A stretch of DNA of 64,000 nucleotides, taken from positions 1 to 64,000 of the forward strand of contig NZ_JACHIK010000017.1 in the NCBI RefSeq assembly GCF_014203155.1, in the 5' to 3' direction. This DNA is from Shinella fusca (GTDB lineage: Bacteria; Pseudomonadota; Alphaproteobacteria; Rhizobiales; Rhizobiaceae). Under the pieces are notes generated by a model that was given only the letters and a program-made list of their open reading frames with translations, was not told the DNA's origin and did no database searches. The translations under genes were made by a program, and so were the position numbers. Positions 42,121 to 45,570 of this stretch are shown in pieces; the stretch's first letter is position 1, and each line of letters starts with the position of its first letter.

Positions 42121-43296
42121 ATGGCTCCCGACACGCGGCAGAAGCGCCGCATCACCATTCTCGGCTCGACAGGCTCCATCGGCACCAGCACGCTCGACGT
42201 GGTGCGCCAGCGCGGCGGGCGCGAGCGCTACGAGGTGCTGGCACTGACCGGCAACGGCAATGTCGAGCTGCTGGCCGCGCAGGCCAAGGAATGCGGCGCC
42301 CGACTGGCCGTGACGGCCGACGAGAGCCGCTACGCCGCGCTGAAGGACGCGCTTTCCGGCAGCGGCATCGAAGCGGCCGCGGGACGAGCGGCGCTGCTGG
42401 AAGCGGCCTCCGGCGATGCGGACTGGGTGATGGCGGCGATCGTCGGCACGGCGGGCCTTGCCCCGACGCTTGCGGCGGCGGAGCGCGGCGCGGACATTGC
42501 GCTGGCCAACAAGGAATGCCTCGTTTCGGCCGGCGACCTTTTCGTCGACGCCGTCGCCAGGGGCGGCGGGCGGCTGATCCCCGTCGACAGCGAGCACAGC
42601 GCGATCTTCCAGGCGCTGGAGGAGGACCAGCGCCACGCCGTCGAGCGCATCGTGCTCACCGCCTCGGGCGGGCCCTTCCGCACCTGGAGCCGCAAGGAGA
42701 TGGCCGGCGTGACGGCCGATATCGCCCGCGCGCACCCGAACTGGTCGATGGGACTCAAGATCTCCATCGGCAGCGCCTCCATGTTCAACAAGGCGCTGGA
42801 GATGATCGAGGCCAAGCACCTCTTCGACGTTCGGCCGGAGCAGATCGAGGTCATCGTCCATCCGCAGTCGATCGTCCATTCCATGGTCGGCTATGTCGAC
42901 GGCTCGGTGCTCGCCCAGCTCGGCGCGCCGGACATGCGCACGGCCATCGGCTACGCTCTGACCTATCCCGAACGCGCGCCGCTCGATGTCGACCGGCTGG
43001 ATTTCGCAAAGCTCGCGCGGCTCGATTTCGAAGCGCCCGACGAGGTGCGCTTCCCGGCGCTGCGCCTTGCCCGCACGGCGCTGACGCGCGGCGGCCTGCA
43101 GGGCGCGGTGATGAACGCGGCCGAGGAAGTCGCCTTCCACGCCTTCGTGGCCGGGCACATCGGCTTCCTCGCCATGGCCGACATCGCCGAGGAGACGATG
43201 GAAAGGCTCGCCCACCTGCCGCCGGCATCCTCGATGGACGATGTCTTCGCCGGAGACGAAGAAGCCCGGCGGGTGGCCGCCGGGCTCATCGGATAA
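42121..43296 (+). CDS. dxr: 1-deoxy-D-xylulose-5-phosphate reductoisomerase
   Basis: 391 residues. It catalyses the second step of the MEP isoprenoid pathway (DXP to 2-C-methylerythritol 4-phosphate, NADPH, Mn/Mg). The N-terminal NADPH motif is ILGSTGSIGTSTLDV. Also present are LANKECLVSAG, the metal ligands in PVDSEHSAIFQ, SGGPFR, and GLKISIGSASMFNKALEMIEA. The ATG at 42121 gives the family-typical start but no good ribosome site is visible. The long upstream open frame overlaps the divergent META gene promoter and is not coding. Confidence 0.96.
   Translation: MAPDTRQKRRITILGSTGSIGTSTLDVVRQRGGRERYEVLALTGNGNVELLAAQAKECGARLAVTADESRYAALKDALSGSGIEAAAGRAALLEAASGDADWVMAAIVGTAGLAPTLAAAERGADIALANKECLVSAGDLFVDAVARGGGRLIPVDSEHSAIFQALEEDQRHAVERIVLTASGGPFRTWSRKEMAGVTADIARAHPNWSMGLKISIGSASMFNKALEMIEAKHLFDVRPEQIEVIVHPQSIVHSMVGYVDGSVLAQLGAPDMRTAIGYALTYPERAPLDVDRLDFAKLARLDFEAPDEVRFPALRLARTALTRGGLQGAVMNAAEEVAFHAFVAGHIGFLAMADIAEETMERLAHLPPASSMDDVFAGDEEARRVAAGLIG
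43264..43285. terminator. Perfect hairpin at the 3' end of dxr
   Basis: GCCCGGCGG (43264-43272) pairs with CCGCCGGGC (43277-43285) over four bases. It lies within the last codons of dxr, 11 bases before its stop, in front of the convergent hemA stop. It may serve as termination or decay barrier for both messages; no T-run follows. Confidence 0.45.
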
Positions 43297-43315
43297 CGTC
43301 GATTGCGCCGCCGTC

Positions 43316-44530
43316 TCAGGCGACGGCGCGGGCCAGCGCACAGCGCGACCAGAGCGCGTGCAGCGCGCCGACGAGATGCTCGATATCGGCATCCGAATGC
43401 AGCGGCGTCGGCGTGATGCGCAGGCGCTCGGTCTTGCGCGGCACGGTCGGATAGTTGATCGGCTGGACGTAGATGCCGAAATTGTCGAGCAGCAGGTCCG
43501 AGATCCACTTGCACTTGGCGGCATCGCCCACCATCACCGGCACGATATGGCTCGGGTTCGGCATGTGCGGGATGCCGTTGCGGTCGAGCGCGGCGCGCAG
43601 CTTGCGCACGCGCTCCTGATGCGCGAAGCGCTCGGTCTGGCTGGATTTCAGGTGCCGGATCGAGGCGAGCGCACCGGCGGCCAGCGCCGGAGGCAGCGAC
43701 GTCGTGAAGATGAAGCCCGAGGCGAAGGACCGCACGAAATCGCACAGCGCGGAGGAGCCGGCGATATAGCCGCCCATCACGCCGAAGGCCTTGGCAAGCG
43801 TGCCCTCGATGACCGTCAGGCGGTCCATCAGGCCTTCGCGCTCGGCAATGCCGCCGCCGCGCGGGCCGTACATGCCGACGGCATGGACCTCGTCCAGATA
43901 GGTCATCGCGCCGTACTTGTCGGCAAGGTCGCAGATTTCCTTGATGGGGGCGATGTCGCCGTCCATCGAATAGACCGATTCGAAGGCGATCAGCTTCGGC
44001 GCCTTCGGGTCGGCGGCCGCCAGCTTGGCTTCGAGGTCCTTCAGGTCGTTGTGCTTCCAGATCACCCGCTCGCATTTCGAATGGCGGATGCCCTCGATCA
44101 TCGAAGCGTGGTTCCCGGCATCGGAGAAACAGATGAGGCCGGGAACCTTCGAACAGAGCGTGCCGAGCGCAGCCCAGTTGGACACGTAGCCCGAGGTGAA
44201 GAGCAGGGCCGCTTCCTTGCCGTGCAGGTCGGCGAGTTCCTGTTCGAGAAGCACATGGTAGTGGTTGGTGCCGGAGATGTTGCGGGTGCCGCCGGCACCG
44301 GCGCCACACTGGTCGATGGCAAGCTTCATCGCCTCCGTGACCGCGGGATTCTGGCCCATGCCGAGATAATCATTGGAACACCAGACCGTGACGTCCTTCG
44401 GGCCGTCCGCCGTGTAGCGGGTCGCCCTGGGGAAGTTGCCCTTCTGGCGCTCCAGATCGGCGAAAACGCGGTAGCGGCCTTCCTGATGCAGGCCGCCCAG
44501 TTCGTTCTTGAAGAAAGTCTCGAAGTCCAT
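43316..44530 (-). CDS. hemA: 5-aminolevulinate synthase
   Basis: 404-residue PLP enzyme that condenses glycine and succinyl-CoA to 5-aminolevulinate, the entry to haem and cobalamin in alphaproteobacteria (Shemin pathway). The start [14 protein letters not shown] at ATG 44530 has GGAGA at six bases. Conserved parts: [48 protein letters not shown], and the PLP lysine in [15 protein letters not shown] candidate FNR/FixK-type site lies about 170 bp upstream, indicating oxygen control. Confidence 0.97.
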
Positions 44531-44664
44531 CCGCAGTCTCCTGTCCGGCGAGAACCCGGACATCATCGTCGTTGGCTGTCGTTCAATCGGCTACACCCGG
44601 CGCTCCTGCGCCGCAACGAAATCCGCTGCGGCAAATCGGCGCCACCTTTGAACCATTCCAATCT

Positions 44665-44706
44665 ATCCTAGGTCTCCAAAGGCCATTCGATGTTGATGCA
44701 TGTCAA
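44665..44706 (-). promoter_or_regulatory. Candidate FNR/FixK-dependent promoter of hemA
   Basis: On the minus strand the box TTGAC-ATGC-ATCAA lies at 44706-44693, matching the anaerobox consensus TTGAY-N4-RTCAA on both halves. The hexamer TAGGAT (44670-44665) follows. If the box is centred at -41.5, transcription would start at 44658, and the hexamer would fall exactly at -12 to -7, as in class II FNR-type promoters. The resulting leader would be about 128 bases before the hemA ATG. Confidence 0.75.
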
Positions 44707-44715
44707 GTCTGCACG

Positions 44716-44743
44716 AAAAAAGGACGGCCTCAACCGTCCTTTT
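44716..44743 (-). terminator. Rho-independent terminator of the cox-like operon
   Basis: AAAAGGACGG (44718-44727) pairs with CCGTCCTTTT (44734-44743) over six bases. On the minus strand the stem ends in a run of six T. It is 29 bases after the coxM stop and separates that operon from the hemA promoter. Confidence 0.92.
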
Positions 44744-44772
44744 AATCGAACCAGTTTCAGCTTTTGCGGGGG

Positions 44773-45570
44773 TCAGGCGGCCGCGACCGCGCGCTTCGCC
44801 ATGACCTTCACGAGGTTCGCCCGGTATTCCGCGCTGCCGTGGATATCCGAGAGGAGACCGCCGGCATCGACCGAAACGCCGGCGACTGCCTCCGGCGACC
44901 AGTTTGCGGCAAGCGCCCGTTCCATGCCCTCGTGCCGGAAGACGCCGTCGGAGCCGGCCCCCGTCACCGCCACGCGCACGCTGCCGTCCGCCCCCTTCGC
45001 CACGAAGACGCCGGCCATGGCATAGCGCGAGGCCGGGTTGGGGAACTTGGAATAACCGGCCTTCGCCGGCGCCTCGAAGGTCACCGCCGTCACGATCTCG
45101 CCGTCCTCCAGCGCGGTCTCGAAGAGCCCGGTGAAGAAGTCGCCGGCGGAAATCTCGCGGCGGTCGGTGACGATGGTCGCCCCCAGCGCCAGCATGGCGG
45201 AGGGGTAGTCCGCCGCCGGGTCGTTGTTGGCGATGGAGCCGCCGATCGTGCCCATGTGGCGCACATGCGGGTCGCCGATATGGGACGCCAGATGGCAGAT
45301 CGCCGGGCAGACCGCCTTGAGCTCCGCCGAGGTCGAGACCTCGTAATGCGTCGTGCCCGCACCGATGCGGACACGGTTGCCGTCGACGGAAATGCCCTTC
45401 AGCTCGGCGACGTGGCGCAGGTCCACGAGGTCGGACGGCGCGGCGAGCCGCTGCTTCATGGTGGGGATCAGCGTCATGCCGCCGGAGACGTATTTCGCCT
45501 CGTCGGACGAGGACTGCAGCTTGACGGCATCCGCGACGGAGGATGCACGATGGTAATTGGTTGCGTACAT
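44773..45570 (-). CDS. coxM: CoxM-like FAD-binding medium subunit of a molybdenum hydroxylase
   Basis: 265 residues. FAD-binding subunit that passes electrons from the [2Fe-2S] subunit to quinone or another acceptor. The start MYATNYHRAS at ATG 45570 has GGAGG before it. It has the FAD motifs KYVSGGMTLIPTMKQRL near 30-46 and GTIGGSIANNDPAADYP near 105-121 (TxGG-N pattern), and a C-terminal CO-dehydrogenase flavoprotein domain. Third in the S-L-M order on the minus strand, 11 bases after coxL. Confidence 0.9.
   Translation of the reverse strand: MYATNYHRASSVADAVKLQSSSDEAKYVSGGMTLIPTMKQRLAAPSDLVDLRHVAELKGISVDGNRVRIGAGTTHYEVSTSAELKAVCPAICHLASHIGDPHVRHMGTIGGSIANNDPAADYPSAMLALGATIVTDRREISAGDFFTGLFETALEDGEIVTAVTFEAPAKAGYSKFPNPASRYAMAGVFVAKGADGSVRVAVTGAGSDGVFRHEGMERALAANWSPEAVAGVSVDAGGLLSDIHGSAEYRANLVKVMAKRAVAAA

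Follow-up and report, generated by a model that had tools for sequence, protein, structure and literature searches.

Related Systems of hemA Control

Within the FnrN/FixK regulon of Rhizobiales, hemA, hemN, and cco are targets, and the consensus TTGANCNNGATCAANG is given for both regulators (Tsoy et al. 2016, PMC4999443). Since FnrN/FixK sites at Rhizobiales hemA genes are already published, the box upstream of hemA in Shinella fusca is an addition to a known type, of which it is a new and well-placed example. Although an FnrN/FixK-type site at hemA is common to both, the portions of that study considered here do not include Shinella, do not resolve spacing to the base, and mention no Irr-like site overlapping the oxygen-controlled promoter (PMC4999443). 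In R. sphaeroides, FnrL, through a box of the FNR type (TTGATccttATCAA), and PrrA, a regulator of the RegA type, both act on hemA, a combination comparable to the one predicted here, but the order of the elements is different and the sections of these reports considered here name no Irr site at hemA (PMC4263372, PMC2908626). A 14-mer identical to the Shinella box appears among the listed FnrL sites of R. sphaeroides, at bchE (PMC2908626), and a study of Irr in that species suggests, in the part considered, that Irr does not help to lower heme synthesis (PMC3413700).

Two other promoters resemble the arrangement described below. The fnrN gene of R. leguminosarum, with two anaeroboxes, also combines an upstream activator site with a site over the start; the element over the predicted start in Shinella, however, fits Irr better than FnrN (PMC7888657). 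In mbfA of R. sphaeroides, the putative start lies inside the Irr box, the repressor geometry that is also predicted for the Irr-like site of Shinella hemA, whereas no low-oxygen activator site is described for mbfA in the text considered (PMC3413700). The probable overlapping iron site is a less expected part of the hemA promoter than the oxygen site. No title among the literature matches listed concerned an Irr site at a Rhizobiaceae hemA.

The hemA Locus and Its Upstream Terminator

The window, that is, the whole stretch of 64,000 nucleotides of S. fusca DNA that was analysed, carries hemA on the minus strand (Table 1). Its product matched TIGR01821 with 700.2 bits (cut-off 338.55), its eight nearest named relatives are all from Shinella, and elsewhere in the genome HemA has a single other match, a 35% relative. 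The ATG at 44530 is most likely the start of hemA, being preferred over the longer ORF start at 44566 on account of the MDFE and AGGAG conserved among relatives. The order on the minus strand is a coxM-type gene (a name given by eye), its terminator, 9 bases, the box, 22 bases, TAGGAT, the predicted start, a 128-base leader with AGGAG near its end, and the hemA ATG. Downstream, hemA faces a convergent dxr-like gene (a name likewise given by eye), their ends lying 19 bases apart (43296..43316), so hemA is probably transcribed alone.

A terminator of the neighbouring genes had been placed 10 bases upstream of the box in the first-pass annotation. The stem-loop was borne out by RNA folding of 44752..44710 (-20.5 kcal/mol, z -5.14), but the distance from the T-run TTTTTT (44721..44716, minus strand) to the box is 9 bases. 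This stem-loop was absent from the output of a simple scanner.

Table 1. Features of the hemA promoter region, in coordinates of the window.
Feature	Position	Strand	Remarks
hemA, 5-aminolevulinate synthase	43316..44530	minus	404 aa from ATG 44530; TIGR01821
GCG inverted repeat GCGCC-GATTT-GCCGC, RegA/PrrA/ActR-like (tentative)	44628..44642	minus	about +17 to +31
Irr-box-like element ATTGGAATGGTTCAAAG	44646..44662	minus	overlaps predicted start; 15-mer core -3 to +12
Predicted transcription start, +1 = G	44658	minus	inferred from class II geometry
-10 hexamer TAGGAT (predicted)	44665..44670	minus	22 bases after box
FNR/FixK box TTGACATGCATCAA	44693..44706	minus	centre -41.5 from predicted start
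Intrinsic terminator of coxM-type gene	44716..44743	minus	AAAAGGACGG-TTGA-GGCCGTCCTTTTTT; RNA fold and sequence

Conservation of the FNR/FixK Box and Its Spacing to the -10 Hexamer

The FNR/FixK-type box claimed before hemA is present as a full TTGA-N6-TCAA, read on the minus strand from 44706 to 44693. Its presence alone is weak evidence, as the window has one such palindrome where 0.26 would be expected and, when the window was shuffled 100 times, 25 of the shuffles contained one or more; across the genome, the pattern occurs at 39 places compared with 14 for a reversed control. Conservation in close relatives had been set beforehand as the test, and all 21 Shinella genomes keep a perfect palindrome at hemA, with the eight fixed bases invariant throughout and an identical 14-mer in 19 of them, while the 22-base spacer between box and hexamer has a mean identity of 71% and only 2 of 22 invariant columns. 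By this comparison, which we regard as decisive, the hemA box is more than a chance match. A wider sample of 110 hemA upstreams was drawn from two sets that partly share species, 80 upstreams coming from the best of 582 named relatives and 30 from the best of 61 further genomes. An order-wide search gave a HemA match in 280 genomes, which lie outside this sample, so that it does not extend to distant Rhizobiales. A perfect box was found in 84 of the 110 (85 boxes in total), and 25 of the 98 distinct upstreams had none within 300 bases.

In class II FNR geometry, the centre of the box lies 41.5 bases before the start and the -10 element 22 bases after the box. The distance to the predicted -10 agrees with this 41.5 geometry, TAGGAT lying at 44670..44665 after a gap of 22 bases, exactly where it had been placed. 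The description of a perfectly placed -10 stands for the position but not for the hexamer itself, which matches TATAAT at four of six bases and has one invariant column of six in Shinella, where it begins with TA in 19 genomes and with CA in 2 (alignment). The 85 boxes were grouped by their spacers into 34 distinct clusters, one of them being the second box of the Mycoplana locus L063. In these, TA follows the box at offset 22 in 21, at 21 in 6, and at 27 in 7, compared with zero to four of the 34 at each remaining offset from 12 to 33; 27 clusters have TA at offset 21 or 22. By this count, the spacing between box and -10 is a conserved property, whereas the hexamer is not. This spacing is kept across genera with spacers that can no longer be aligned, which, together with the retention of the box, supports the class II reading. 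A sigma-70 promoter scan of the hemA upstream listed none, which fits a weak or absent -35.

Crp/Fnr Regulators and Other Boxes in the Genome

A search for the regulators showed that the genome encodes both an FnrN-like protein (FnrL model, 218.5 bits), with an N-terminal cysteine cluster CRACEARHGGVCG on inspection of the sequence, and a FixK-like protein (175.6 bits), although neither match reaches 300, the curated cut-off. Around the remaining 38 box places, the neighbouring genes were inspected by eye, and 14 of these boxes were read as preceding or clustering with genes of low-oxygen respiration, denitrification, heme, or related regulation. They include boxes at ccoG, ccoN, fnrN/hemN, a HutW-like gene, two Usp genes, and a FixL-like kinase, as well as at narK/Crp-Fnr, an nnrR-like gene, nosR, pseudoazurin, nirK/nnrS, and coxB; an alcohol dehydrogenase/permease pair is the least sure of the 14. 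Among these neighbours, ccoG, ccoN, hemN, and coxB are NCBIfam matches over cut-off and the remaining names were given by eye. The other 24 boxes are located within ORFs or before genes without an evident link.

The layout seen at hemA (box, 22 bases, TAGGAT) recurs in this genome at the fnrN-like gene. At L003 (about 1501-1620), fnrN-like and hemN genes diverge around a single FNR box, with TAGGAT at offset 22 on the fnrN side. For the other boxes, 18 directions were checked; six have TA at offset 22, and 12 have either TA or CA there, so the 22-base layout is common but not universal.

Irr-Like Element over the Predicted Start

The earlier reading of this promoter was supported but incomplete, since it omitted an Irr-like element over the predicted start and a conserved GCG repeat in the leader. 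The Irr-like element has 14 of 17 columns invariant in the 21 Shinella, and an Irr protein is encoded in the genome (NF045678, 232.6 bits, cut-off 150; IrrA). The consensus of Irr sites (ICE) is TTTAGAA-N3-TTCTAAA. With at most two mismatches, it occurs at six places in the genome compared with two for a control, hemA not being among them. These six places precede mbfA-, sufS-, rirA-, and fssA/NifU-like genes, hemH, and a small ORF with bfr next downstream, all of which we take to be of the kind known as Irr targets. Pfam searches with the first 62-90 residues returned rubrerythrin, class V aminotransferase, Rrf2, Nfu_N, ferrochelatase, and ferritin domains, and no match for the small ORF before bfr; beyond these domains, the gene names are our own assignments.

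A looser pattern, TTNGAANNNTTCNAA, which was loosened only after the hemA element had been seen, occurs at five places in the genome (sufS-, mbfA-, rirA-, and fssA-like genes, and hemA) versus one for the control. It is found at 5-13 places per genome in the 21 Shinella, compared with 1-4 for the control in each of them, and every one of the 21 has a hemA element that matches it (alignment). Against the full consensus, the element in the window matches at 10 of 14 fixed bases and keeps the core GAA-N3-TTC, leaving four mismatches, while several hemA loci of Ensifer/Sinorhizobium match at 12 of 14. The best match to the consensus in 43 dereplicated hemA upstreams had at most three mismatches in 24, four in 8, and at least five in 11. 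Three control motifs reached three or fewer mismatches in none of the 43 and four mismatches in 3, 0, and 1, so that the Shinella site falls in a class that controls also reach.

The core GAA-N3-TTC is present between -215 and -60 in 73 of 98 distinct upstreams, and in 17 of the 25 with no perfect FNR box within 300 bases. In upstreams of the Agrobacterium/Allorhizobium type, the first position holds a degenerate site or none, with an Irr-like one further down, e.g., TTTAGAATGAATTTACA (three mismatches). Judged from these sequence comparisons, the second conserved site over the predicted start is most likely an Irr site.

Promoters of hemA without a near box were also compared at 23 named loci, which were picked for the lack of a near perfect box, with L118 (box at -293) added, and inspected to 900 bases. 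In nine of the 23 (L096, L099, L106, L107, L114, L119, L125, L132, and L133), all from Rhizobium or other Rhizobiales and several presumably of the R. tropici group, the FNR box is replaced by TTGTCA-N16-TATTCT, with the Irr-like element 30 bases after that -35. An Irr match with at most three mismatches was found in 19 of the 23, and none at this threshold up to 900 bases in L115, L127, L128, and L134. Perfect FNR boxes lie far upstream at L087 and L118, and one-mismatch boxes occur at several of the 23.

GCG Repeat and Leader

The GCG inverted repeat downstream of the predicted start has 12 of 15 columns invariant in the 21 Shinella, and its right part, TTG[CT]CGCA, is present in 92 of 98 distinct hemA upstreams. 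The strict form GCGNC-N4-6-GNCGC occurs in 36 of the 98, some of which have it at another point of the region; the motif of RegA/PrrA-type regulators is described as degenerate in the part of the report considered (PMC4263372). The genome encodes ActS (593.3 bits, cut-off 350), adjoined by an ActR-like ORF (by eye). A RegA/PrrA/ActR site may be suggested as a lead, weaker than the Irr-like element.

Directly before the AGGAG of hemA, a hairpin TGTCCGG...CCGGACA is predicted at 44562..44542 on the minus strand (alifold, 21 Shinella leaders), and in other genera a different hairpin apparently occupies the same place (by eye). Three further candidates were rejected. The four matches to Rfam leader RNAs in 43900..45200 (E up to 1) are all below the gathering score, and none lies on the hemA leader. 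A sigma-54 reading of TGGCGC...TTGCC is off by one in its spacing and variable among relatives (by eye, alignment), and GGGGTTGAC of other genera, considered as a second promoter, has no consistent -10 and does not occur as such in Shinella (by eye).

Proposed Mechanism and Alternatives

From the observed sites, their spacing and conservation, and the regulator genes, we infer binding, a start site, and a direction for each effect as follows. The hemA promoter is quite probably activated at low oxygen from -41.5 and blocked by Irr over the start, with ActR maybe giving a redox input. At low oxygen, a dimer of FnrN or FixK would occupy the box as a class II activator and recruit RNA polymerase to a -10 without a recognisable -35, with RNA beginning near 44658. 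When heme or iron is scarce, heme-free Irr would occupy -3 to +12 and block the start, and the GCG repeat at about +17 to +31 might add redox control through ActR. In the portion of the literature considered, Irr is described as binding its sites when heme is absent, and as repressing or activating according to position (PMC7762939). In R. sphaeroides, the amount of hemA RNA is the same after loss of FnrL (PMC4263372), and low-oxygen hemA RNA does not increase HemA protein in B. diazoefficiens (PMC6515984), as stated in the parts of these reports considered; both results caution against too simple a mechanism.

The start element could instead be a further FNR/FixK box of weak type, TTGGAATGGTTCAA, at which a high dose of the activator would cause repression, as at the proximal box of R. 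leguminosarum fnrN. It is one base off TTGA-N6-TCAA (seven of eight fixed bases), the Mycoplana locus L063 has a full TTGAAACGGTTCAA at its position, and in the account of R. leguminosarum fnrN considered here repression is assigned to a box at -2 and activation to another at -34 (PMC7888657). However, across genera the core is GAA-N3-TTC, mostly with GG before AA rather than TTGA, it persists in 17 of the 25 upstreams that lack a perfect FNR box, and the other four places of the loose pattern in the genome are at Irr-type genes, which makes a weak box an unlikely explanation.

It is similarly doubtful that the FNR/FixK box alone matters and that the conservation downstream reflects a constraint on the initially transcribed sequence or leader RNA. 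Further conserved stretches of the leader and the hairpin predicted before AGGAG would suit such a constraint, as would the column identity just upstream of the box, which is also high (0.938 over 10 columns). Against this, several lineages with unlike leaders carry an Irr-type site (TTTAGAAGGAATCTAAC, TTTAGAATGAATTTACA) elsewhere, so an operator suits better than an RNA constraint. That the box is a chance palindrome without a role, as the frequency of such palindromes in the shuffles might allow, is extremely improbable and was rejected on its retention in all 21 Shinella despite a diverged spacer and on the equal spacing to TA in most distinct box sites.

Significance for Heme Supply in the Rhizobiaceae

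Beyond Shinella, the evidence is evenly poised on whether hemA of Rhizobiaceae is controlled by a single compact promoter integrating oxygen AND iron/heme (perhaps also redox) at near-fixed spacing. The activating module (the FNR box, or a sigma-70 -35 in some Rhizobium) would be swapped, while the Irr operator would stay about 10 bases after the -10 start or, in relatives of Agrobacterium/Allorhizobium, at a second position. If true, iron control of hemA in the Rhizobiaceae would be direct repression by Irr. HemA sets the flow into heme, which is needed by low-oxygen respiration (cbb3 oxidase, denitrification), and a flow of heme without iron is wasteful or harmful. A promoter sensing both signals at base-level spacing would provide a directly testable rule of heme supply for rhizobia and their relatives, with the exchange of the box for a sigma-70 promoter in some Rhizobium as a natural control.
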